From the NCBI RefSeq assembly GCF_002863865.1, contig NZ_CP022684.1:4717990-4781989 (forward strand): a stretch of 64,000 nucleotides of DNA, in the 5' to 3' direction. Below are positions 364 through 53,321 of the stretch, in pieces (position 1 is the stretch's first letter; every line of letters starts with the position of its first letter). Below the pieces are notes generated by a model that was not told where the DNA came from, did no database searches, and worked only from the letters and a program-made list of their open reading frames with translations. Origin of the DNA: Ketobacter alkanivorans (GTDB lineage Bacteria > Pseudomonadota > Gammaproteobacteria > Pseudomonadales > Ketobacteraceae). A program made the translations under genes and the position numbers.

Positions 364-926
364 TGGGAGCTCTTTTTCAGGCGGCGTTCCTGACGATGGT
401 TCCAGGAACGGTAAATGTGAAGACGCCAAACCAACCTGATAGCAATGAAGCTCAGGGTGGCGCTGGTCAGGCCCACAATGGCGCATCCCAGAAATAAAGG
501 CCCCATGGCTTTCCAGCCCACTTCCGCCAGTTGTTTCAGAAACGCATCAAAATCCGTCAGAATGATATCGAAATTGACTCGAATGGGGTTGCCCGTCGTG
601 TCAACGGGTACGCCTACGATCCAGGCACCCACCTCGTAACAAAAGAAATACAAGGGAATGTAGGTGAAAGGATTACTCACCCAGGTTGAAGCAACCGATA
701 TCGGCAGATTGCCGTGGATAAAAAAACAAAAGAAAATGGCCACGAAGATCTGTATTGGTAGCGGAATAAAGGCGCAAAGCACTCCGGCGAAGATCCCGGC
801 CGATACGGAGCGCCGGTTCAAATGCCAAAGATTGGGATCTTTGATTCTCGGCCCAAGCTTGGATAGCCAACGATTTTCTGTGATCGTGTGGGGCGCTGGA
901 ATGTACTTTCTAAATAGTTTTTTCAA
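360..926 (-). CDS. DUF2062 membrane protein
   Basis: A 188-residue protein of the DUF2062 family, with the family-like stretch [19 protein letters not shown] near residue 30. Hydrophobic segments lie at about residues 40-75, 82-105 and 145-170, so it is a small inner-membrane protein; its function is not known. The start is a TTG at 926, which gives [15 protein letters not shown] and matches where relatives begin; no strong ribosome site precedes it. The last codons overlap the end of lolD by four bases in convergent orientation. It is divergent from comEC, with 66 bases between the two starts. The family assignment is from remembered sequence character. Confidence 0.8.
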
Positions 927-6803: not shown

Positions 6804-7813
6804 CTCTTTTATATAATCATTCACTAAAGCCCTTCAATACACTGGCTGTTGATGTGCGGGCAGAATCATTCTGTACGGTAACCTCTGTTGATGAACTGAA
6901 GAATGCGCTCAAGCAAACCACGTCTAACGAGCTGCTGGTGTTAGGGGGTGGCAGCAATATTGTGCTGACTTCTGATGTGGCGGGGCTGGTAATTCACAAC
7001 TGTATCGGCGGGGTGGAAGTGCTGGAGCAAGGGCCGCAGCAGGTTGTGATCAAAGTGGGGGCTGGTGAAAACTGGGATGGCCTGGTAGAAACCTGCGTGC
7101 AGCAGGGTTGGTATGGGCTTGAGAATCTGAGTTGGATCCCAGGCTCGGTCGGTGCTGCCCCGATCCAGAATATCGGGGCTTATGGTGTAGAGCTGAAAGA
7201 TTGTCTGGAGGCTGTGGAAACGCTGCGTCTCAAGGATCTTTCGCCGCAGCAATTCAGTTGCAAAGAATGCCGTTTCGGTTACCGCGACAGCGTATTCAAA
7301 CAAGAAGAAAAGGGGCGTCACGTTATCACCGCCGTGGTGTTGAGGCTGAACAAAACCCCCACCTTAAAGCTGGATTACGGAGAGATTCGCAACAGCGCCG
7401 ATGAGTGGGGTTATGATGTCGATCAGCTTACTGCTGCCGATGTACGCCATATAATCATTCGTATTCGTACCGAAAAACTACCGGATCCAGCGTTAGCGCC
7501 TAATGTTGGAAGCTTTTTTAAAAACCCGGTGGTGCCTGTAGCGGTATTCCAGACCATTAAAATGGCTGAGCCTTCGGTGGTTGCCTATGAGCTGCCAAAT
7601 GGACAGGTTAAGCTGGCGGCAGGTTGGTTGATTGATCGTTTGGGTTGGAAAGGAAAGCGGTTGGGGCAGGCCCGTGTTCATGATCGCCAGGCATTGGTGT
7701 TGGTCAATGAGGGGCAGTCGAGTGCAGATTTGTTGACGTTGGCTGCAAAGATACAACAACAGGTTTTGGATCGTTTTGGGGTCGAGCTGGAAATTGAACC
7801 CAGCATCATCTAA
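6800..7813 (+). CDS. murB: UDP-N-acetylenolpyruvoylglucosamine reductase MurB
   Basis: A 337-residue FAD-dependent reductase that makes UDP-MurNAc, the second committed step of peptidoglycan synthesis. The FAD-binding stretch LLVLGGGSNIVLT (about residue 45) and SWIPGSVGAAPIQNIGAYG (about residue 110) are visible, and NVGSFFKNP near residue 232 contains the conserved catalytic serine. The insertion pattern and length fit the type I (E. coli-like) form. It starts with GTG inside the stop of the phosphatase gene and is the last gene of the exbB-murB run, ending against rne in convergent orientation. Confidence 0.96.
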   Translation: MTLLYNHSLKPFNTLAVDVRAESFCTVTSVDELKNALKQTTSNELLVLGGGSNIVLTSDVAGLVIHNCIGGVEVLEQGPQQVVIKVGAGENWDGLVETCVQQGWYGLENLSWIPGSVGAAPIQNIGAYGVELKDCLEAVETLRLKDLSPQQFSCKECRFGYRDSVFKQEEKGRHVITAVVLRLNKTPTLKLDYGEIRNSADEWGYDVDQLTAADVRHIIIRIRTEKLPDPALAPNVGSFFKNPVVPVAVFQTIKMAEPSVVAYELPNGQVKLAAGWLIDRLGWKGKRLGQARVHDRQALVLVNEGQSSADLLTLAAKIQQQVLDRFGVELEIEPSII

Positions 7814-7866
7814 CTCATTTCCCGTTCAGTTAAGTTCTTTCAAAGCTAGCTGCTATTGAAAGATAT

Positions 7867-7895
7867 GCGCTTACCCTGAAGGTCAGGGTAAGCGC
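7867..7895. terminator. Hairpin between convergent murB and rne
   Basis: A perfect 13-base inverted repeat, GCGCTTACCCTGA and its complement, separated by a three-base loop. It lies in the 89 bases between the two stop codons. No clear T-run follows on either strand, so it may act as a weak bidirectional terminator or as a 3' end protector rather than a classic intrinsic terminator. Confidence 0.5.
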
Positions 7896-7902
7896 ACCGG
7901 GT

Positions 7903-10740
7903 TTAGCTGTCTTTCTTTACTTCTGTCGCGGCGGCGGCTTTGGCTTTGGCGGCCTCTTGCTGCTGGCGACGGCGTATTTCCCGCGGATCGTTAGAAGCAC
8001 GCTGCCCGGGCTGTTCTGCTTCCTGTGGCTTGGGAGCAGGTTTGGCTGCTGCCGGAGCCGCTGGAGCACTTGGCTTTGCTGCTGCCGGAGTAGCTGCTGC
8101 CGGAGTAGCAGGTGCCGCCGGTTTTGGGGCTTCTACTTTGGCTTCAACCTTGGCAGGCGCAGCTGGCGCGGCAGCAGGTTTAGGCGCTTCGGCTTTTGGC
8201 TGTGGCGCTGACTGCTGGGGCTTGGTTTCTGCTTGCGCATTACCCTGCGGTTTACTGGGCTGAGGTTTTGGAGCCTCTTGTGGTTTAGGCGCTTCTGCAG
8301 CAGGTTTCGCAGCAGCCGGAGCGTCGGCTTTGGGTGCTGCCGGTTTCGGCTGCTGAGCTTTGTTTGCCTGGGCTTCTGCCGTTGGTTTGGCTTCAGCTGA
8401 TGCGCCATTGGCCGGTGGAGCTTTTGGCGTTTCGGCTTTAGCAGGAGCCGCTGGCTTGGAGTCAGTTGCGTCCGACTTGGTAGCCTCAGGTTTTGCTGCT
8501 TCAGCTTTCGGCGCTTGCGCAGGTTTGTCTGAGCCTTGGGCAGGCTTCGGGGCTACAGCGTCAGTTTGAGCATTACCAGACTCGGTTTGATTAGACTGCT
8601 GATCGCGCTCACCGGCTTGCGCTTTGCTCTGACGGCGACGGCGATTGTCATTGGAGCTGCGACGACGGCCGCGACGGGCGTTCCCCGACTCCTGGCCTTC
8701 CTCATTGCTACTGTTGCCGTCAGCAGGCTTTTGCTTGTTCTCGGCTGGCTGTCTGCTACGGTTGCCTTGCTGATCTTTCTTCTGGTTGCGGCCCCGTCCC
8801 TGCTTCTGATCGCGGTTCTGGTTTTGGTTTTCGTTGGCCGAATCCTTAGCGGCATCCTTATTTGCAGCTTCTTTATTATCGTCCTTTTCCGCGTTGGTAT
8901 TGTCGCGGCGGTTACGGCCACGCTGGTTGCGATTTTCACCGCCACGCTGGTTGCGGTTGCCACCACGCGGATTACGGTTTCCGCCACGCTGGTTGCGATT
9001 TGGCTGGTTACGTTTCTGTTCTACCTGTTTGGTTTCCTGCTCTTCATTGCTGCTGAACAGCTGGGCGAACCATGCGAACAGGCGAGCGAAAAAGCTTGGA
9101 TCTTTTTTCACTATGGGTGTTGGCGCAGGGGTGTTGGGCTGAATCATTTGCACCGCTGCTTCTTCCTGGCGGTGAATGGGGCTTTCACCCGGAGCCAACA
9201 GATCCTCTTCAAGCTCATCAGCGGCATCAATCAGGTCATAGCTGGCAATGCCTTCACCCTCTACCTGATCACTGCGGATACGGTTGACTTCATAATGTGG
9301 AGTTTCCAGATTCGGGCTGGGCAGAATCAATACACGTACTTTGTTGCGGCTTTCGATGGCCACAATATTGTCGCGCTTTTCATTCAGCAGGTAGGTCGCC
9401 ACATTAACAGGTACTTTAGCGTGGATTTCACCACTGTTCTCTTTCAGCGCTTCTTCTTCAATCAAGCGCATAATGTTCAGAGATAATGAGTGCAGGTCGC
9501 GAATGAAGCCTACGCCACTGCAGCGGGGGCAGATATGGCCACTGGTTTCACCTAACGAGGGTCGCAGGCGTTGACGGGATAGTTCCATCAGGCCAAAGCG
9601 GGAAATGCGGCCCACCTGAATACGGGCACGATCCACTTCCAGCGCATCACGCATGCGGTTTTCCACTTCGCGCTGGTTGCGGTTGGCGTTCATATCGATG
9701 AAATCCACTACGATCAGTCCACCGATATCACGCAGGCGCAGTTGGCGGGCGATCTCGTCAGCAGCTTCCAGGTTGGTCATCAGAGCAGTTTCTTCGATAT
9801 CTGCGCCTTTGGTGGCCTTGGAGGAGTTGATGTCGATGGACACCAGTGCTTCGGTAGGATCGATCACGATAGAGCCGCCGGAAGGCAATTTCACTTCGCG
9901 TTCGAAAGCGGTTTCGATTTGGGATTCGATCTGATAACGATTGAACAGGGGGATATTATCGGTATACAGCTTGATCTTGTTTTCGTACTGCGGCATTACC
10001 TGACGCACGAAAGTCAGAGCTTCTTCGTACACTTCCTTGGTGTCGATCAGCACTTCGCCGATGTCCTGGCGCAGATAATCACGCACCGCACGGATAATAA
10101 CGTTGCTTTCCTGATAGATCAGGAATGGGGCAGAGCGCTTTTCGGAGGCCTCACTGATGGAGGTCCACAGGGTCAGCAGGTAGTCCAGATCCCACTGCAG
10201 TTCTGCCACGCTGCGGCCGATACCGGCAGTGCGGATGATAACGCCCATATCCTGAGGGATATTCAGGCCGTTCATAACGTCCCGCAGAGCGGCTCGCTCA
10301 TCGCCATCGATGCGACGTGAAATGCCGCCGGCACGGGGGTTGTTAGGCATCAGTACCAGATAGCGTCCGGCCAGGCTGATGAAGGTGGACAGGGCTGCGC
10401 CCTTGTTGCCGCGCTCTTCTTTACCTACTTGCAGGATGACTTCCTGACCTTCCTTGATCACATCCTTGATGGTGAAGCGACCTTGGATGTCTTTGGGGTT
10501 TTTTACGAAATACTCGCGGGAGATTTCTTTCAGTGGCAGAAAACCGTGGCGTTCAGAGCCGAAATCAACAAACGCGGCCTCTAGACTGGGTTCTATGCGG
10601 GTGATTCGGCCCTTGTAGATGTTTGACTTTTTCTGTTCTCGGGTGCGGTGTTCAATGTCCAGATCATACAAACGTTGGCCATCGACCAGAGCAACACGTA
10701 GCTCTTCTGAGTGTGTTGCGTTAATGAGCATTCTTTTCAT
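7903..10740 (-). CDS. rne: Ribonuclease E
   Basis: A 945-residue endoribonuclease, the core of the RNA degradosome. I chose the ATG at 10740, giving [21 protein letters not shown], the family's usual start; an upstream ATG adds six residues. The N-terminal half carries the S1 domain (about residues 35-120), the catalytic region with VDFIDMN near residue 340, and the zinc-link CPRCSG near residue 400. The C-terminal part is low complexity: a hydrophobic stretch [16 protein letters not shown] near residue 550 (likely membrane anchor), an Arg/Gly/Asn-rich repeat (about 574-612) that should bind RNA, and about 300 residues rich in Ala, Pro and Lys. Transcription runs from a 928-base upstream gap. 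Confidence 0.97.
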
Positions 10741-11120
10741 GCAGGGTGTATCCAGCAATCTATGCGGATAACAGAAAGGAGGCGGATTACGGGCAGGGAA
10801 GCAGTATTAAACCGATCTGAGCAACGTCACTACAGACCAGCGGCCTGACCCATCATAATGGCAGGCAATTGTGATAACAGCATGTCTTGTTTGGCACCTG
10901 TTATCCCATACGCTGTATCCGGTATGAACTGCTATCGCTTTCAGTACCGGTTAATATGCTTCTTGCCGGGTCGAGCAGCTCGCACCGTTTGCGTTGGCTG
11001 TCACTTCCCTTATCAGGCCATGATGCTCCATTTTTGATTGCACTGTGTGATTCCGTCTGTGCAATGGACTAATTGAGCGTTTCGGATCAGGCCGGATAAA
11101 TAATTTCGTCTCTCTTGCTC

Positions 11121-11140
11121 TGTTAAACGCGTGTTTAACA
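11121..11140. promoter_or_regulatory. Palindromic operator candidate TGTTAAAC-N4-GTTTAACA
   Basis: Two perfect 8-base half sites separated by GCGT. The core AAAC-N4-GTTT resembles the PsrA-type fatty-acid regulator box of Pseudomonas, although the flanking bases differ (T/A rather than G/C). It lies about 380 bases upstream of the rne start and 530 upstream of rluC. The binding protein is unknown. Confidence 0.4.
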
Positions 11141-11502
11141 TTCACGCTGCGCTGTCCTCTATGGGGCAGGGCTAACGTACCTTTTTAGCATTTGTCTTAC
11201 ATTTGTTTGCGCTGTCCGGCACATAAAGGGGTGCTCTGTTGCACGAGAGCGTGCAGGTTCAGATGCATCCGTTGTGTCGGCGCTGGTGTCTTATTGGGGC
11301 CGGTAAAATAGGCACAGCAATAAAAGCAATCATCTTTTGCGGTCTCGGTCAGTTGGCTGGTTGAGCCTTTACTAAAACTGAGGCATCCGCTTGGGATAAC
11401 GTTGACCACGTTGTAATTCGCCCGCCGTAATAATTACGAGTCGGAACCATCGTGATCCTTCACCTGTTATGGCAACGCGGCAGGATAATTAGGTGATTGC
11501 AG

Positions 11503-11520
11503 GTATTCTAGGTAGAATAC
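11503..11520. promoter_or_regulatory. Palindrome GTATTCTA-GG-TAGAATAC upstream of rluC
   Basis: A perfect 8-base inverted repeat with a two-base centre, 149 bases before the rluC start. The spacer is too short for an RNA hairpin, so a dimeric DNA-binding protein is the more natural reading. The right arm contains TAGAAT, which could double as a -10 element, but no matching -35 was found. Confidence 0.4.
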
Positions 11521-11668
11521 TCAGCCCCCGGTCGTCTTGCCATTGTGTGGCTGGACTGTGCAAGGGGATGAACCTGGCTAGCCTTGCCCGTCGCTTTTAT
11601 AGGCACACAGCAATATAGCAGGAAATGTTAACCTCATCAAACAGATAGCATTAAGTCCTTGATTCCTC

Positions 11669-12616
11669 ATGAGCAGCAATGATAACCGCACTGCGGTGGC
11701 CATGGTCACTGTAACCGAAGACCAGCACGGCCAACGGCTCGACAACTTTCTGATGTCGCGCCTGAAAGGTGTACCAAAATCAGCCATTTATCGCATGATT
11801 CGTAAGGGCGAGGTGAGGGTAAACAAGGGCCGAATCAAGCCTGAGCATAAGCTCCAGGACGGTGATGTGGTGAGGGTGCCCCCCGCACATACCAAACCCG
11901 CTTCGGAAGAATCCCTGTTTGTGGGAGATAATCTGAAAAGTCAGCTGGAAGCCGCCATTTTGTACGAAGATGATGGTTTGATTGTGATTAACAAGCCCAG
12001 CGGGTTGGCCGTTCACGGTGGCAGCGGCGTCAGTCTTGGCGTGATTGAGGCCCTGCGGTTGATGCGTCCAAGTCAACGCTTTCTGGAGCTGGTTCACCGT
12101 CTGGACAGGGACACCTCTGGCTGCCTTATGGTGGCCAAAAAGCGTAGCGTTCTGAAAAAGCTGCATGAAGATCTGCGTGATGGCAACAACTTGCAGAAAA
12201 CATACATAGCCCTGCTTTGGGGGCGCTGGAATGGCCTTGAGCATCGCATCGAGGCCCCGCTACGGAAATTTCATCTGCCTTCCGGTGAAAGGGTGGTTCG
12301 GGTGTCTACCGACGGTAAGCAATCCTTGACGCTGTTTCGCCAGATGGAGCTTTACGATAATGCCACCCTGGTAGAGGCAAAGCCGATTACCGGGCGAACC
12401 CACCAGATCAGGGTGCATGCTCAGCATGCCGGTCATGCCATTGCCGGGGATGAAAAATACCTGCATCGGGAACAAGCCGCCTATTTTGTGGACAAAGGAC
12501 TCAAGCGGTTGTTCCTGCATGCCGCCAAGTTGGAGTTAGTAGACACTGAGGGGCAAAGGCGGGTGTTCGAGGCTCCATTACCAAAAGAGTTAAAAAACGT
12601 TCTCAGCAGGTTGTAG
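11669..12616 (+). CDS. rluC: Ribosomal large subunit pseudouridine synthase RluC
   Basis: A 315-residue RluA/RluC-family enzyme that converts uridines in 23S rRNA to pseudouridine (positions 955, 2504 and 2580 in E. coli RluC). An N-terminal S4 RNA-binding domain (about residues 18-80, RLDNFLMSRLKGVPKSAIYRM) precedes the catalytic domain with HRLDRDTSG near residue 140; its second aspartate is the catalytic residue. RluC rather than RluD is chosen because of its position beside rne, conserved in E. coli and Pseudomonas. The next gene starts four bases after the stop. Confidence 0.94.
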   Translation: MSSNDNRTAVAMVTVTEDQHGQRLDNFLMSRLKGVPKSAIYRMIRKGEVRVNKGRIKPEHKLQDGDVVRVPPAHTKPASEESLFVGDNLKSQLEAAILYEDDGLIVINKPSGLAVHGGSGVSLGVIEALRLMRPSQRFLELVHRLDRDTSGCLMVAKKRSVLKKLHEDLRDGNNLQKTYIALLWGRWNGLEHRIEAPLRKFHLPSGERVVRVSTDGKQSLTLFRQMELYDNATLVEAKPITGRTHQIRVHAQHAGHAIAGDEKYLHREQAAYFVDKGLKRLFLHAAKLELVDTEGQRRVFEAPLPKELKNVLSRL

Positions 12617-27791: not shown

Positions 27792-30700
27792 ATGACCCCT
27801 GAATCCCCAAATCAGGATCTTTTGCCCGGATACAAGATACATGAAATGATCTTTGATAAGGGTACCACCAGAGTGTATCGGGCTGAACGCCTGTCTGACG
27901 GCAGGAGTGTCATGCTAAAGGCATTGCGCGACGACGGCGATATACTGGATTCCACGGCCTCCCTTAAGCATGAATATGATATTGCCAGACAATTTAATGC
28001 CGATGGCGTGATTCAGGTTATTGGTCTAGAGCAGTTCCAGAACCGACCAATGATCGTGCTGGAGGACTTTGGCGGGGTATCTCTCAGTCGTTTGATCGAG
28101 AGCAACAGAACCATTTCGCTGCCGGAGTTGCTTTCAATAGCCATTCAGTTGTCGCAGGGCCTCAGTGACATTCATAGCGCTAACATCATTCATAAAGACA
28201 TCACACCCTCGAACGTGGTTTACAACCCGGACACGGGGAAGGCAAAAGTCATTGATTTTGGTATCTCAACTTATTTAACGCGCGAGCAGGCGGCGATTGC
28301 CAATCCTAAAGTGGTGGAGGCCAGCCTACCCTATATTTCGCCGGAGCAAACCGGGCGCATGAATCGCTCGGTGGATTATCGCAGTGACTTCTATTCCTTC
28401 GGCGTTACCCTATTCGAACTGCTTACGGGTCGACTGCCTTTTGTGGTCAGTGAGCCTATCGAATGGTTTCACTGCCATATTGCCAAACAACCACCGACAC
28501 CATTCCAGATCGATCCCACCATACCTCAGCCAGTTTCCGACATTGTAATGAAGCTGATGGAGAAAATGGCTGAGAACCGCTATCAAAGCGCACAAGGGTT
28601 AAAGGCCGATCTACAGCGCTGTTTGGATCAACTGAATCAATCAGGCACCATCGAACCGTTTGCGTTGGGCACGGATGACATTAGTCAGCACTTTCAGATA
28701 CCTCAAACCCTTTATGGCAGGGAGCAGGAAGTAAAGCAGTTGCTGGCAAGCTTCGAGCGGGTTAGCCAGGGCAGCAACGAGTTGATGCTGGTGTCAGGAT
28801 ATTCAGGCATCGGAAAAACCTGCCTGATACGAGAAATATATAAGCCCATTACCGAGCGACGTGGTTTTTTTATCGCGGGGAAATACGATCAACTGCATCG
28901 GAATGTGCCTTATAGCGCGTTGGTTGCAGCGTTGCGTGATCTGGTGCGCCAGCTACTTACAGAGAACGAAGAGCGGCTCGCCACTTGGCGGGAGAAAATT
29001 CTTGCAGCGGTAGGTGTTAACGGTCAGATCATGGTGGATTTGCTGCGGGAGCTGGAGTTGGTGATCGGGCCTCAGCCGGACGTTGCTGTTTTACCACCGC
29101 TGGAATCAGAGCAGCGTTTCCATCTGGTTTTTATGGCATTCATAAAGGTATTTGCCAGTGCAGCGCACCCGCTGGCTATTTTTCTGGATGATTTGCAATG
29201 GGCGGACAATGCCAGTCTCAATCTGCTGGAGTCATTAATTCATCCGGAATCAAAATTGCCATATTTGTTGGTGATTGGGGCGTTTCGCGATAACGAAGTG
29301 CAGCAGGGGCACCCGCTGAGACTCAGTATTAAGTCCATTGCAGAACATGGGTGCCCGGTTGAAGAAATTAGGCTTAGCCCTCTGAGCCTAGAGCATCTCG
29401 CGGCTCTTCTTAGTGATACGCTTGGCCTGAAGCGTGACGATGTCATGGCTTTAGCGCAACTGATTCAACAGAAAACAGCAGGTAATCCATTTTTTACAGA
29501 GGAATTTCTAAAAACCCTGCATCAAAAAGGGCTGATTGCTTTTGATACGAGGTTGCGGTGTTGGACGGGCGACGTTGATCTAATCCGCCAACAACAAATC
29601 ACAGACAATGTGGTTGATCTGATGGCAGAAAAATTATGCCAGCTGGAGCCACAAACTCTGGAACTGATTAAGCTCGCCGCCTGTATAGGAAACCGTTTTC
29701 CTTTGAGTCTGTTGATGCTTGTTTCTGATCAGTATCCGGCGCAGATCGAGGCCGGGATAAAATCGGCAATGAAAGCGGGAGTGATTGCTCCGATCGGCGA
29801 TACCTATCAGATTATGGAGCTGAAAGATCGCAAGCTGAATGAGGTAACGGTTGAATTTGCGTTTGCGCACGATCGCATACAGCAGTCGGCCTATGCGCTA
29901 CTGGATAAAGCGCGACGCAAGCAGGTCCATTTGCAAATCGGGCACTTGTTGTTACGCAGATTAAACGATGAAAAACGCCATGAGCGGCTTTTTGATATTA
30001 CTAACAGTCTGAACTTCGCAATCAAGCTGATCAATGATCCTGCAGAACGGGCGCAGCTGTGTCAACTGAACCTTTTGGCAGGCAAGCGCGCGAAAGCATC
30101 GACTGCTTATGATGCAGCTAAGAGCTATTTTAACTTTGCGCTCGGCTTGCTGCCTGAAGATTCATGGCAGCAAGCATACGAACTCACGCTTGAACTGCAT
30201 AATGAAGCGGCAGAGGCCGCTTATTCATTAGCTGATTACAGCGCGTTGCAAAAACTGTTAGAGGCGGGCTACGCCGGTGCAAAAACATTGATTGATAAAA
30301 TAGATTTATACCTGGTGCAGATATCAGCACTCATTGCACAAGGACGTCTGCAGGAATCTCTGGATCTAGCAAAGCCGGTCATAGCTAAATTGGATTACCA
30401 CTATCCGGATAAGCCCAATAAACTTCAAGTTATGATCGAGTTGTTTAAGAGCATTATTTATCTGCGTAAAGTTGATATCAAAAAGCTTGAAACGTTGCCC
30501 GCGATGACTGATCCCCGTCATATCGCTGCGCATCTGATCGGTTCTCGTATTGGGGCTCCGGCCATGTTTCTGCAGCCGGAACTGTTGTCGATGATGGCCT
30601 TCCGCTCCCTGCGTATTCAGTATAAGCACGGCCACTGCGTACACGCACTCAATGCCTGGACGCTCTACGGTATGGTGTTGGCGAGTCGTTTGTACAAGTC

Positions 30701-32771
30701 TGGGAAAGGCGATGCATTTGGTAAGCTTGCTCTCATGTTAACCAAGCGCTTTAAGTCTCGTGCTATGGCCGCTCGGGTTGAACATCTTTACAACGCGGTG
30801 GTTCGTCATTGGCATGAGCCATTGCGCAACTGTATTGATCCTTTGCAGCAGGCCTATAGGCTGGCTATAGAGAACGGGGATTTCGAATACGCGGTATTGG
30901 CCTTGGTTGTGCGCATGATAGATCAGTTGGATTCGGGGCTTGATTTGGACACATTGCAGTCCGAGTTGAGGGAGTATCACGGCGCAATAAAACAGTTGCA
31001 CCAGGGAGATACGCTTGACTACGTGGATATCTATTTGCAGTTCTGCGAGAACATGAGTGGTAAAGCGAAAGATCCAACAGTGCTTATTGGTAAACATTAT
31101 GATGTAGAGGCAAAGCGCAAGGTACATGAGAAGAAAGGTGATAAAAGCCTGATCGTAATTGATCATGATATGACGTTATTGACTCGTTACCTTTTCGGCG
31201 ACGTCAAGGGTGCGTTAATTGAAGCCGATACGATGTCGGTCGATGATGCCAGTGTTGCGGGATTCTTTATGTCAGCGCGGATGACGTTGCTCGATACGCT
31301 GATTCGGTTTGCCAATGTCCACGGTGCCACTCGCAAAGAACGCAAGAATCTGATGCGAAAGGCAGCCGGGAATCAAGCAAAAATGAAAGCTTGGTCTAAA
31401 AACAACCCAGATAATTTTCGTAACAAATACTGTTTGATTGAGGCTGAGCGTTTGCGAGTTATGGAGAAAGGGCTGGAGGCGCATCCTTGGTATGATGAAG
31501 CGATTCGGCTTGCTGCAGAGCAGGGGTTTATCCATGAACAGGCACTTGCAAACGAGCTGTGCGGTGCGATGCATTGTGCAGCAGGACGAATGACCATCGG
31601 TATGCCTTATCTTGCTCAAGCTCTTGAGCTATATCAGCGCTGGGGCGCATTGGCTAAAGTTGAAAACTTGCAACAGCGTTACCCTCAGCTGATCAGAGCA
31701 GTGCGGCATAAGGATTCAACCATACTGGGGGGCACCACACGTACCGAACAGTTGGTTAGTATCGACATCACCGCATTGATGAAAGCGTTGAAAGCCATCG
31801 CTGAAGAGAAGGCTCATGGCCGAATGGTGGAATTGATACTGGCGTCGGCACTGGAGTTCGCGGCAGCGCAACAGGGCTTGTTAATATTGCGAAACGCCGA
31901 GGGCAAGTTCTTTATAGAAGGGGAGGCCAGTGTTGATGGCAGCAAATCCAATGTCCTACGTTCACTGCCTTTAACCGATGAGCGTTTGCCACGATCGTTG
32001 ATCAACTATGTCATTCGCACTAAGGCCAGTATCGTAGTGCATGATGCTCAACAGGCGGTTGATGATATACCTGGTTTGACTGTGGATCCCTATATCCAGA
32101 AAAATGGGATTCGTTCACTGCTTTGCTTGTCTATTGTGACCGGCAGCGCTGATGAGAGCGAGCTGATTGGTTTGCTTTATCTGGAGAATAACCTGGCTGT
32201 AGGTAGTTTTATTCAAGAACGTTTTGACACCCTTGAAATCATCGGTATGGCAGCTGCTGGACGCCTGGAGCTGTCACGTAAGGCATCGTTTGATGGGCTG
32301 ACCGGCTTGTTTAATCACGAATATTTTCAAAACATGTTACGGCAGGAGTTTGCCAGTTCGCGGCGCTACCAGCTTGGCCTTGGTCTTATTCTTATCGATA
32401 TAGATCATTTTAAGCAGTTTAATGATACTTGGGGGCATCAGCTCGGCGATCTTGTGTTGCGGGAGGTGGCTCAGCTGATCAAATCCCATTGCCGTGATTG
32501 CGATGTTGTTGCCCGTTACGGTGGCGAAGAGATGGTCATCATCATGCCCAGCACCACAATGCCCTATGCTGAGGAAGTGGCAGAACGCATACGTGCCGTT
32601 GTTGAAAATCACCGGGTTATCCATGAAGGGCACGAACTGACTGTTACCATCAGTTTGGGGCTATCCATGCTGGGAGAGAATACTGTGGATAAAGACGAAC
32701 TTATTCGTGTGGCGGATGAAGCTCTGTACGTGTCTAAAAGAAATGGGCGAAATCAGGTTACCGTTGCTTAG
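27792..32771 (+). CDS. Giant Ser/Thr kinase - AAA ATPase - GAF - diguanylate cyclase
   Basis: A 1659-residue cytoplasmic signalling protein with no membrane helix seen. Kinase domain at residues 10-280: lysine K43, HKDITPSN at 134-141 (the usual HRD appears as HKD) and DFG at 155-157. An AAA/orc-like ATPase follows, with Walker A GYSGIGKT at 336-343 and Walker B FLDDLQWAD near 460. A helical, TPR-like region spans about 640-1290. A GAF domain lies at about 1335-1490, and a GGDEF domain at about 1495-1657 with GGEEM at 1577-1581 and an I-site RDCD at 1568-1571, exactly five residues before it. Kinase-AAA-GAF proteins usually end in a histidine kinase; here the output is c-di-GMP synthesis. A convergent Cache protein gene ends 10 bases away. 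Confidence 0.9.
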   Translation: MTPESPNQDLLPGYKIHEMIFDKGTTRVYRAERLSDGRSVMLKALRDDGDILDSTASLKHEYDIARQFNADGVIQVIGLEQFQNRPMIVLEDFGGVSLSRLIESNRTISLPELLSIAIQLSQGLSDIHSANIIHKDITPSNVVYNPDTGKAKVIDFGISTYLTREQAAIANPKVVEASLPYISPEQTGRMNRSVDYRSDFYSFGVTLFELLTGRLPFVVSEPIEWFHCHIAKQPPTPFQIDPTIPQPVSDIVMKLMEKMAENRYQSAQGLKADLQRCLDQLNQSGTIEPFALGTDDISQHFQIPQTLYGREQEVKQLLASFERVSQGSNELMLVSGYSGIGKTCLIREIYKPITERRGFFIAGKYDQLHRNVPYSALVAALRDLVRQLLTENEERLATWREKILAAVGVNGQIMVDLLRELELVIGPQPDVAVLPPLESEQRFHLVFMAFIKVFASAAHPLAIFLDDLQWADNASLNLLESLIHPESKLPYLLVIGAFRDNEVQQGHPLRLSIKSIAEHGCPVEEIRLSPLSLEHLAALLSDTLGLKRDDVMALAQLIQQKTAGNPFFTEEFLKTLHQKGLIAFDTRLRCWTGDVDLIRQQQITDNVVDLMAEKLCQLEPQTLELIKLAACIGNRFPLSLLMLVSDQYPAQIEAGIKSAMKAGVIAPIGDTYQIMELKDRKLNEVTVEFAFAHDRIQQSAYALLDKARRKQVHLQIGHLLLRRLNDEKRHERLFDITNSLNFAIKLINDPAERAQLCQLNLLAGKRAKASTAYDAAKSYFNFALGLLPEDSWQQAYELTLELHNEAAEAAYSLADYSALQKLLEAGYAGAKTLIDKIDLYLVQISALIAQGRLQESLDLAKPVIAKLDYHYPDKPNKLQVMIELFKSIIYLRKVDIKKLETLPAMTDPRHIAAHLIGSRIGAPAMFLQPELLSMMAFRSLRIQYKHGHCVHALNAWTLYGMVLASRLYKSGKGDAFGKLALMLTKRFKSRAMAARVEHLYNAVVRHWHEPLRNCIDPLQQAYRLAIENGDFEYAVLALVVRMIDQLDSGLDLDTLQSELREYHGAIKQLHQGDTLDYVDIYLQFCENMSGKAKDPTVLIGKHYDVEAKRKVHEKKGDKSLIVIDHDMTLLTRYLFGDVKGALIEADTMSVDDASVAGFFMSARMTLLDTLIRFANVHGATRKERKNLMRKAAGNQAKMKAWSKNNPDNFRNKYCLIEAERLRVMEKGLEAHPWYDEAIRLAAEQGFIHEQALANELCGAMHCAAGRMTIGMPYLAQALELYQRWGALAKVENLQQRYPQLIRAVRHKDSTILGGTTRTEQLVSIDITALMKALKAIAEEKAHGRMVELILASALEFAAAQQGLLILRNAEGKFFIEGEASVDGSKSNVLRSLPLTDERLPRSLINYVIRTKASIVVHDAQQAVDDIPGLTVDPYIQKNGIRSLLCLSIVTGSADESELIGLLYLENNLAVGSFIQERFDTLEIIGMAAAGRLELSRKASFDGLTGLFNHEYFQNMLRQEFASSRRYQLGLGLILIDIDHFKQFNDTWGHQLGDLVLREVAQLIKSHCRDCDVVARYGGEEMVIIMPSTTMPYAEEVAERIRAVVENHRVIHEGHELTVTISLGLSMLGENTVDKDELIRVADEALYVSKRNGRNQVTVA

Positions 32772-32781
32772 AGTCCAGTGC

Positions 32782-33363
32782 TTAGTGTCCAGCTTCACCT
32801 TTACAGGGTTGGGAAAAATCAATTACAAATTGATCGAAGCCTATGACTAAAACGCCAATGGCGTGTTTGGCTCTGGGGTTGTATATCGGTGTTGATACTT
32901 TTACCAACATCAGGTGGGTGCTTTCATCCAGTGTCTCGGATTGGAAATAGGCTTCTCCCTGTTTTAAGTTGATGGCTCTTAGAAATTGCGCTTCATCCCC
33001 TTGCCAAAAGTCCGTTGTTTTCTCGGTTGCTGCAACTAGCCCGCCATTTCGCCCAATCAATAAGCCTTCTCCTTGAATTGAAATATTAGCAATCCATTTA
33101 CGCATCGCATCTGCTGACGGATTAGCTATTATGGCGTTAAGTACACTGTCTGATTCTCTTAGTTTGGGCCATACCCTATCAATTTTGTGGGGGTCAGGAG
33201 GTGAGGTGTTGTAGTTGTTTACATCTGTAATCAGAATTGGGTTAGTGGCCAGTTCCGCAACTTGTTTTCCAAGGCAGCGCCAGCGAATGTCTTCGTCTGG
33301 GTTGTTTGGTGTAGCGAACGTTGTTGAGCTAATCAAACACACTAAGATGCAGATGTGTCGCAT
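32782..33363 (-). CDS. Secreted Cache/PDC-like sensor-domain protein
   Basis: A 193-residue protein with a signal peptide (cleavage near TTFA-TPNNP, residue 17). The remainder looks like a single stand-alone PDC/Cache fold: a long helix with paired segments (ESDSVLNAIIANPSADAMRKWIANI), then GEGLLIGRNGGLVAATEKTTDFWQGDE near residue 100, the typical 'G-G-xVAxT-x-T-D-F-x-x-G-D-E' stretch, and STPIYNPRAKHAIGVLVIGFD. It has no membrane helix after the signal and no output domain. It may bind a small ligand in the periplasm. It converges on the kinase-GGDEF gene, but a link to it is inferred from adjacency only. Confidence 0.75.
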   Translation of the reverse strand: MRHICILVCLISSTTFATPNNPDEDIRWRCLGKQVAELATNPILITDVNNYNTSPPDPHKIDRVWPKLRESDSVLNAIIANPSADAMRKWIANISIQGEGLLIGRNGGLVAATEKTTDFWQGDEAQFLRAINLKQGEAYFQSETLDESTHLMLVKVSTPIYNPRAKHAIGVLVIGFDQFVIDFSQPCKGEAGH

Positions 33364-51470: not shown

Positions 51471-53321
51471 TCAGGAGGGAGGAAGTGCAGAATCGGTCTG
51501 GCTTTCTGATGCGTTGAAGAATTGAACTTGATTGCGGCCATTACCTTTGGCCGCATACAGGGCTTTATCAGCGTAGGACAGAAAGTCAGCAGGTTCTTGT
51601 GCTGTATTGGGTATTGCTGCGTAACCACCGATGCTGACGCTTAAGTTAAGCGGGCCGATTCTGGTATTGACCGGAGCCTCTGCCACCGATTTGCGTATCC
51701 GTTCTGCCACAATGTTAGCTCCTGCCAAACCAGTGTCCGGTAGGATCACACAAAACTCTTCGCCACCGTAGCGGGCGGCAATGTCTCCGGGCCAGCGGGT
51801 TTCATTCTCCACGCGTCTGGCTATTTCCTGCAGGCAGTCATCTCCCACTTGGTGGCCGTGGGTATCGTTGATGGGTTTAAAATGATCTGCGTCGATCAGC
51901 AATACGGTCATAGAACGCTGCGATTCCGCAAAGCGTCTGATCTGTTTGTCCAAGTAGAGATCAAGAAACCCCCGGTTCTTGATGCCGGTAAGCTGATCGG
52001 TTTGGCTTAATTCCAGCAGCTTGTGGTTCGCTTCCTCTAATTCTTGAGTGCGCTCAGTTACCCTAAGCTCCAGCTCTTCTCGAGCCTGAGTCTGTGATTG
52101 TAAGGCTTGCTGTTGCGCATTGAAGCGCAGCGCTCGCTCTTGATTAATGCGTTCTGCCATGGCAAACGAAAGCAATACCGCTTCCAGCAGCGTGCCAGCT
52201 TGGATCGCATTTTCGGTAATCACGTTGCTGGGCAGTATATGGACTTTGCTGAGCGCCAGAACCAATGCGCTGATCAGCAACATGGCCCAGGCCACCGTGT
52301 AATAACGGGCAGCGGCCAAGCCCCTGTGCCAGGCAAACACCCCAAGACCTAAACCCCACGAACAGATAATGGCAGCTATGGCGATCACCAGGCGAATGGA
52401 GAGGTTGTATGGCAGAACCAGAGTCAGCATCGCCACGATCAGGCTCGAAGACACAACGACGTTTTGTATGCTGTGTATGGACTTTGATATGTCCCGGGTG
52501 TTCAGGAACAGTCGCACAAACATGCTGCCGCTGAACAGAGCAATCGAGAGAAACAGAACAATAGCCCGGTCGTTCCAGTCTGTGGCATTGGGCCAGAAAT
52601 ACTGGAAGGCCCATCCACCCAAACAGGCGACAAACAGCGCCACACAAACAACGTAGCCCACGTAGTACAGGTAGGCACGATCTTTAAGGGCAAGAAACAT
52701 CAGCAGATTGTAAATGGCAATAATGCCTAGCCCACCGAAGAAATAGCCCTGGAGAGCAGAGCGCTGCTCGTTGTGTTGATTGAACGACTCCGGCTGCCAT
52801 ATATTGATTGGCACCTGTACGGCGCTGGTGGTGCGTACTTTGACGAGTATCTCTGCACGGGTTGCCGGGGTAACACGAATCGGTATCAAAAAGTTGCGGT
52901 GCAGAATGGGGCGGGCAGTAAAAGGCTTCTTATCGCCCAGCAACCAGCTCTGTTTGATTTGGTTGTTTTCGATCAGGTAGACGTCCAGATGATCCAATAC
53001 CGGATAAGATATTTCCATAATCCACTCGTGGATTTGGCTGCGGTTGTCTATGGGAAAGCGCAGCCACCAGGAGGAATGATTGTAGCCCTGATTGAAGATA
53101 GCATCCGGGTTCTTCCGCCAGTTCGGTTGTGTTTGCAGTAACTGCTGGGGTGAGAGAGAGTGTTCCGGGTCTTCCAGATATTGGATGTCGTGTTTGACTT
53201 CTATCAGTGAGTGTCGGCTGTGCAGTTCAACGGCCTGAGCGCTCCAGACGCAGCACCACATTAACATTGCCGTCAGGGCGCGGGTCAGGGTCTGTAATCC
53301 AGGGCTGTGTGATGTTTGCAT
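51471..53321 (-). CDS. 7TMR-DISM diguanylate cyclase
   Basis: A 616-residue inner-membrane enzyme that makes c-di-GMP. Order: signal peptide (1-30), 7TMR-DISMED2-like periplasmic domain (35-165, RHSLIEVKHDIQYLEDPEHS start), seven membrane helices (about 185-395), coiled coil (395-440), GGDEF (445-605) with GGEEF at 519-523. The I-site RxxD is absent: the position reads WPGD after an R. The periplasmic part should bind carbohydrate-like ligands. Product feedback is therefore likely weak. A small secreted protein gene follows upstream on the same strand, 37 bases away. Confidence 0.92.
   Translation of the reverse strand: MQTSHSPGLQTLTRALTAMLMWCCVWSAQAVELHSRHSLIEVKHDIQYLEDPEHSLSPQQLLQTQPNWRKNPDAIFNQGYNHSSWWLRFPIDNRSQIHEWIMEISYPVLDHLDVYLIENNQIKQSWLLGDKKPFTARPILHRNFLIPIRVTPATRAEILVKVRTTSAVQVPINIWQPESFNQHNEQRSALQGYFFGGLGIIAIYNLLMFLALKDRAYLYYVGYVVCVALFVACLGGWAFQYFWPNATDWNDRAIVLFLSIALFSGSMFVRLFLNTRDISKSIHSIQNVVVSSSLIVAMLTLVLPYNLSIRLVIAIAAIICSWGLGLGVFAWHRGLAAARYYTVAWAMLLISALVLALSKVHILPSNVITENAIQAGTLLEAVLLSFAMAERINQERALRFNAQQQALQSQTQAREELELRVTERTQELEEANHKLLELSQTDQLTGIKNRGFLDLYLDKQIRRFAESQRSMTVLLIDADHFKPINDTHGHQVGDDCLQEIARRVENETRWPGDIAARYGGEEFCVILPDTGLAGANIVAERIRKSVAEAPVNTRIGPLNLSVSIGGYAAIPNTAQEPADFLSYADKALYAAKGNGRNQVQFFNASESQTDSALPPS

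Follow-up and report, generated by a model that had tools for sequence, protein, structure and literature searches.

A 1659-residue protein of Ketobacter alkanivorans joins a Ser/Thr kinase, a candidate STAND-like ATPase and a GAF domain to a predicted diguanylate cyclase

A survey published in 2005 lists an 1826-amino-acid protein of Clostridium thermocellum, gi|23020879, as 'Kinase + 6 TPR repeats + GGDEF' (PMC1262709). The same survey describes 'dual protein kinases' of the HstK type, consisting of a Ser/Thr kinase, a GAF domain and a histidine kinase (PMC1262709). In fungi, the Candida protein CHK1 is described with kinase, AAA_16 and GAF domains, and these domains are also named in the Schizosaccharomyces pombe hybrid histidine kinases Mak2/Mak3 (PMC9069115). 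The scheme given for STAND proteins comprises a NOD, a winged helix and a TPR sensor, with multimers forming on ATP, and PknK is named as a STAND kinase (PMC4381067). No functional study of a kinase-AAA-GAF-GGDEF protein was recognised among the papers listed from the openly licensed literature, covered mostly at the level of titles and abstract beginnings; the terms 'threonine', 'protein kinase', 'AAA' and 'TPR' are absent from the main text of PMC12943098.

The protein considered here is encoded in a 64,000-nucleotide stretch of the K. alkanivorans genome (the window). Like the C. thermocellum protein, it has an N-terminal Ser/Thr kinase, TPR repeats and a C-terminal GGDEF domain on one chain; however, the likeness is one of description, and the survey's passages on it name neither AAA nor GAF. 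With the HstK type it shares, again by description, a Ser/Thr kinase, a GAF domain and a second signalling enzyme, which is a histidine kinase in HstK and GGDEF here; 51 of the 92 relatives aligned in this work do end in a histidine kinase. The order of kinase, AAA_16 and GAF is the same as described for Candida CHK1, and the Pfam family TPR_CHK1 is weakly matched, although below its cut-off, whereas CHK1 and Mak2/Mak3, compared by description, are fungal and have a histidine kinase plus receiver output. In MalT and PknK, too, the ATPase precedes a helical/winged-helix-like part and a repeat, and PknK has a kinase as well (PMC4381067), but a sequence relation to MalT is not established (hhalign probability 37%) and PknK is likened by description. 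The TOMM kinase/cyclase family TIGR03903, by its name a kinase/cyclase fusion as in seven cyclase-ended relatives, matches the whole protein with E 4e-45, the ATPase region 306-738 being the best-matching stretch. However, the score of 154.1 bits is far from the cut-off of 705.75, and the output is a class III cyclase there and GGDEF here. This kind of architecture is already known and widespread, with the output enzyme often swapped, and the 1659-residue protein is a further member.

The reading frame contains 1659 codons and no internal stops (Table 1). Four Pfam domains score above their gathering thresholds: Pkinase (residues 26-271, 2.2e-33, 116.2 bits against a cut-off of 31.7), AAA_16 (1.6e-42), GAF (4.8e-7) and GGDEF (7.7e-48, 162.7 bits against 23.8). 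TPR_CHK1 remains below threshold (19.8 against 27 bits), and no HATPase or HisKA family occurs among the 22 Pfam matches. One-chain homologues of nearly full length, 58 and 61% identical, are present in two genomes of the same genus, which disfavours a chance read-through or frameshift fusion; the reading as two genes joined by a frameshift was rejected. The preliminary description of this DNA, which had proposed a single gene for one protein with kinase, ATPase, GAF and GGDEF parts, is thus confirmed, as are the positions that it gave for K43, HKD, DFG (155-157), Walker A, RDCD and GGEEM. A promoter and terminator scan yielded no more sites than shuffled sequence.

Table 1. Features of the 1659-codon reading frame, in protein residues and window coordinates
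Feature	Residues	Window positions	Strand	Evidence
Whole reading frame: kinase - AAA_16 - helical repeat - GAF - GGDEF	1-1659	27792..32771	+	
Hanks-type Ser/Thr kinase domain	about 14-280	27831..28631	+	Pfam, PDB fold match
Catalytic loop HKD	134-136	28191..28199	+	motif position, alignment of 92
AAA_16 P-loop ATPase	306-495	28707..29276	+	Pfam
Walker A GYSGIGKT	336-343	28797..28820	+	Lys342 in 92/92
Walker B region	461-467	29172..29192	+	Asp466 in 92/92
Helical and winged-helix-like part after the ATPase	531-740	29382..30011	+	model secondary structure, conservation
GNP motif inside the helical/winged-helix-like part	564-566		+	conservation
Long TPR-like helical repeat	about 741-1330	30012..31781	+	AlphaFold2 models; Pfam TPR_CHK1 below cut-off
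GAF domain	1346-1489	31827..32258	+	Pfam
GGDEF diguanylate cyclase domain	1498-1655	32283..32756	+	Pfam, alignment, fold matches
I-site RDCD	1568-1571	32493..32504	+	motif position
A-site GGEEM	1577-1581	32520..32534	+	motif position

The AlphaFold2 model of residues 1-1200 (mean pLDDT 89.6, pTM 0.83) contains, in this order, a kinase-like N-terminal part, the ATPase, helices with a winged-helix-like stretch, and an all-helical repeat. The assignment of residues of about 605-692 as winged-helix-like is our reading of the model elements. The TPR-like helices of the preliminary description are seen in the model as this repeat, although TPR_CHK1 lies below the Pfam cut-off. The model of the C-terminal part (residues 1104-1659, built from an alignment of 20) has pLDDT 81.2 but pTM 0.45, and therefore leaves the mutual arrangement of its domains uncertain. 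All 50 fold matches listed for it are GGDEF proteins. Kinases fill the 50 matches listed by each PDB fold search with the 1-1200 model, so that the ATPase and the repeat were barely probed by these searches. Both the kinase and the GGDEF fold, for which a Pfam and structure check had been suggested, were thus found.

The gene follows tatD and rmuC on the same strand, 103 bases from rmuC. Convergent genes lie downstream: one for a small dCache-like protein, one for a C92-peptidase-like protein (both matches below the Pfam cut-offs) and one that is class V aminotransferase-like. The start of the dCache-like protein (window 32782-33363, minus strand) looks by eye like a signal peptide. No signalling partner was found in the directly adjacent genes scanned. 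The gene occupies the same place in two other genomes of the genus (G001 and G002). In G002 (L130, 6100-10920, minus strand), a stop separates a kinase-AAA frame of 747 amino acids from a repeat-GAF-GGDEF frame of 859 amino acids, near the boundary of the ATPase part and the repeat; this may be a decayed gene or two proteins. In G003, G004 and G005 the gene is absent between rmuC and the dCache gene, which are adjacent there; G004 has homologues at other places in its genome. Since only three of the six genus genomes, including that of K. alkanivorans, have the gene at this site, it is accessory there.

The family was sampled from loci that gave the best matches, up to 30 per search. Removal of two duplicates and 23 frames not reaching GAF (contig or stretch ends, split genes and output-less genes) from 117 matched reading frames left 92 rows, among them the 1659-residue protein and its paralogue. 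Outputs were labelled with HMMs, built mostly on Pfam-checked seeds; 26 of the 92 rows extend up to the edge of the DNA stretch taken, five of these being cut off and unlabelled, and some labels rest on a partial domain (L078 was labelled as a histidine kinase by a HisKA match alone). The same front end is followed by a histidine kinase in 51 rows, GGDEF in 21, GGDEF with EAL in three, a class III cyclase in seven and no recognised output in ten, the last consisting of the five cut-off rows and five complete short ends. As the query itself contains GGDEF, these shares lean somewhat to GGDEF. A histidine kinase is indeed the commonest end, as the preliminary description had supposed. However, its view of a c-di-GMP output as unusual does not hold: GGDEF ends, including GGDEF-EAL, make up 24 of the 92 rows of this GGDEF-leaning sample, and the combination of kinase, TPR and GGDEF was published in 2005. 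A fusion of kinase and GGDEF unique to this protein was rejected on the same grounds.

Several members deviate from these classes. L067 from the Clostridium thailandense genome apparently has both a histidine kinase part and GGDEF after GAF, and one member of alignment A2, used below for the GGDEF domain, matches Pfam His_kinase (5.8e-23). Five proteins from the search of the Clostridium magnum phylum (L074, L076, L081, L083, L094) form a clade with about 100 residues after GAF and no recognised output; the kinases of all five are degenerate. Front ends of about 1300 amino acids lacking GAF and output were observed in L028 (1480-5385), L038 (1188-5090) and L062 (1435-5379). Those of L028 and L038 lie in tandem on the same contig, and the nearest reading frames beyond those of L028 and L062 look by eye like membrane proteins, not signalling outputs.

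Judged by the front-end trees, outputs are exchanged between front ends in this family, because the GGDEF-bearing front ends do not form one clade. A quick front-end tree built from all 92 rows implies 13 changes of the GGDEF label, and starred branches force no fewer than nine of these. For the ATPase region, uniting the 21 GGDEF-bearing rows in a single clade, apart from 35 others, lowers the log-likelihood by 305.7 and is rejected by an AU test (p-AU 1.8e-56) run on a quick tree without a mixture model. This region resolves few branches (8 of 53 starred), and output labels in its quick tree are hardly more clustered than shuffled labels. In a tree of the GGDEF domains (23 fusion rows and eight domains from the K. 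alkanivorans genome), however, a single clade of fusion GGDEFs is not rejected (p-AU 0.115), and thus the number and direction of the swaps are not fixed. An independent capture of GGDEF in the lineage of the 1659-residue protein is not claimed: the front-end trees demand exchange, but the GGDEF tree does not speak against a single clade.

The kinase fold matches PknB of Mycobacterium tuberculosis (PDB 5u94; Z 31.6, rmsd 2.0, 257 residues aligned). The 1659-residue protein has K43, D136, N141 and D155, and so do both intact same-genus homologues and the paralogue. The glycine-rich loop GxGxxG was not found, residues 21-28 (FDKGTTRV) being degenerate; the column of residue 24 has glycine in 10 of 92 rows, with 12 gaps. 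This loop is degenerate in some active kinases. HKD in place of HRD, pointed out in the preliminary description, occurs in the family more often than any other catalytic triplet (40/92, against 8/92 for HRD) and is therefore no anomaly.

The description had missed that, by the aligned residues, it is the kinase and not the ATPase whose enzymatic capacity is often lost. K43 is retained in 71 of 92 rows (11 gaps), the catalytic Asp136 in 55 (two gaps), Asn141 in 64 (two gaps) and Asp155 of DFG in 71 (one gap), and all four occur together in 46 rows, or 46 of the 81 ungapped rows. The complete set is kept in 27/51 histidine kinase, 14/21 GGDEF, 0/3 GGDEF-EAL, 4/7 cyclase, 0/5 short-ended and 1/5 cut-off rows; one of the seven plain-GGDEF rows lacking it is truncated. 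The catalytic Asp is gone in GGDEF-bearing rows such as L040, L048 and L052 and in all three GGDEF-EAL rows, and plain losses are visible by eye in the kinase segments, such as HKA and GFG in L040. Structural positions are kept: the APE-like motif retains its Pro and its Glu in 90/92 rows each, and Arg263 is present in 92/92. After exclusion of four rows whose N-terminus is incomplete or gapped, the front-end tree holds 45 intact and 43 degenerate kinases; their distribution requires 18 changes, of which starred branches force at least 12. Thus, as far as residues tell, the family keeps the kinase fold but often not kinase chemistry, whereas the ATPase motifs are never lost in the 92 rows. In the lineage of the 1659-residue protein the kinase is probably a working enzyme, since the four residues are all present and its identity to the two genus homologues (63-67%) is close to that of the AAA part (68-70%); the repeat is 52-53% identical.

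Walker A Lys342 and Walker B Asp466 are each present in all 92 aligned front ends, and it looks as if the ATPase is the obligatory engine of the family and the kinase an optional enzyme. The relation to STAND ATPases is less clear-cut. Of 56 aligned members, 39 match nSTAND1 and 38 match nSTAND6 at E <= 0.01, but the 1659-residue protein itself is below the Pfam gathering scores of nSTAND6 (22.1 against 27.7 bits), nSTAND1 (17.3 against 27.1) and NB-ARC (14.1 against 23.5). Comparison of the ATPase profile with Escherichia coli MalT by hhalign covered just 68 columns, with E 0.00035 and the low probability given above; the secondary structure after the ATPase in the model fits a layout of winged helix and repeat. 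The profile matched 212 PDB sequences. In the 60 of these that were listed (Clp, ORC/Cdc6 and others), it is mainly the P-loop that is matched, and we recognised no STAND protein among them. The protein has the P-loop Walker A and B motifs and is a candidate member of the STAND ATPases.

The GGDEF domain is likely an intact diguanylate cyclase. Its core positions, to which we assign metal- and guanine-binding roles presumably as in PleD, are invariant in the 20 aligned rows of A2, this protein included, and the GG[DE]E motif is present. The RxxD I-site, reported in the preliminary description as RDCD, was found five residues ahead of the motif. GGDEF proteins do not all have such a site; by our count from the list, 18 of 23 GGDEF fusions have RxxD. 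Together with the Pfam match and the GGDEF fold matches listed, the core positions make the c-di-GMP output suggested earlier likely. The fifth residue of the motif is Met in all four rows of the protein's own clade and in none of the 27 others, which have Phe. In this clade GGDEF follows GAF almost directly, whereas, by our reading, an LExxVxxRT-type linker is kept in 14 of the remaining 16 GGDEF rows in A2.

We consider it an even chance that the protein is a STAND-like ATPase switch of a kind that unites dimer-dependent outputs, the output here being a feedback-limited diguanylate cyclase. It would be a one-chain signalling switch, probably soluble. A partner or ligand would bind the repeat and/or GAF, the closed ATPase would thereby switch to its ATP-bound form, and clustering of the protein in STAND fashion would follow. 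Within the cluster, GAF domains would be paired, and so would the GGDEF domains attached directly to them, leading to c-di-GMP, which would be made by dimers only and capped by the I-site. The kinase, intact here, would most likely phosphorylate its own chain or a client and thus tune the switch, not being an obligatory step. The ATP-dependent assembly put forward in the preliminary description is plausible in this form. Histidine kinases, GGDEF domains and class III cyclases all work as dimers, and a clustering ATPase switch would suit all of them, which would explain the free exchange. The switch is favoured because the Walker residues are universal while the full kinase set is kept in half of the rows, because 82 of 92 outputs belong to these dimer-working kinds, and because most of the 56 aligned members match nSTAND1 and nSTAND6. 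It is weakened by the short and improbable MalT match, the nSTAND and NB-ARC scores below gathering thresholds, the lack of a recognised STAND among the 60 of 212 PDB matches listed, the failure to find a ligand or partner, including any signalling partner in the adjacent genes scanned, and the GGEEM motif peculiar to the own clade.

Alternatively, the Ser/Thr kinase could be the input enzyme, phosphorylating the chain, for example at the repeat or GAF, and so turning GGDEF on, with the ATPase just supporting. The retention of the four residues in the own clade and a conservation nearly at the level of the AAA part mean that the kinase may matter as an enzyme here, and two thirds of the plain-GGDEF relatives keep the set; but the catalytic Asp is lost in some other GGDEF-bearing and in all GGDEF-EAL members, and such a relay is rather unlikely. 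The tail could also be an ordinary GAF-gated cyclase that the kinase, ATPase and repeat merely place in a complex without controlling its activity. GAF-GGDEF is a common architecture, the two G002 frames separate the kinase-AAA and repeat-GAF-GGDEF parts, and output-less front ends exist; however, the G002 split may be mere gene decay, and the recurrence of the same front end with unrelated outputs after GAF argues for functional coupling, which makes a passive scaffold unlikely. That GGDEF would instead act as an effector, binding c-di-GMP at its I-site and thereby controlling the kinase, we regard as highly improbable: the I-site is there, but the core positions of the domain are intact and other relatives have other enzymes in its place.

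If the ATPase switch is the correct reading, it makes a prediction open to test, namely that output should depend on the ATPase and not require the kinase. An ATP-driven switch would then be joined to c-di-GMP synthesis in one chain, and a large family, perhaps together with the fungal CHK1-type sensors, whose domains follow the same order, would be activated by a common mechanism. More tentatively, with the balance somewhat against it, the kinase fold, STAND-like ATPase, TPR and GAF might form a universal clustering cassette to which any enzyme that depends on dimers can be joined, be it a histidine kinase, diguanylate cyclase, GGDEF-EAL or nucleotide cyclase, the kinase repeatedly becoming a pseudokinase regulator and the ATPase active site being kept in every relative examined. 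The main value of the comparison is that, at the family level, the ATPase is invariant and the kinase dispensable, a contrast for which no report was seen among the matches listed, mostly from the openly licensed literature.

At E <= 1e-100, the protein has matches in 17 of 57 relatives, in 39 of 398 genomes of the phylum and in 33 of 398 genomes of the phylum of C. magnum; at E <= 1e-120, it has matches in 15 of 369 genomes of the class. Each count includes the own genome or, for the phylum of C. magnum, the centre genome. GGDEF-ended homologues spanning query residues 11-1659 are present in C. thailandense and C. magnum.

The K. alkanivorans genome encodes a second full-length copy with 37% identity. 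This paralogue (L131, G000:C1:2927000-2945000, 6945-11987, plus strand) is located directly after the TRAP-transporter gene dctP and before convergent dctM/dctQ. By our count, 65 of 77 matches in a search of the own genome overlap a GGDEF domain at least partly, and thus many GGDEF proteins are predicted in this genome, the 1659-residue protein being one of them. A further predicted diguanylate cyclase in the window, at 51474-53321 on the minus strand, is a 7TMR-DISM sensor with GGDEF.
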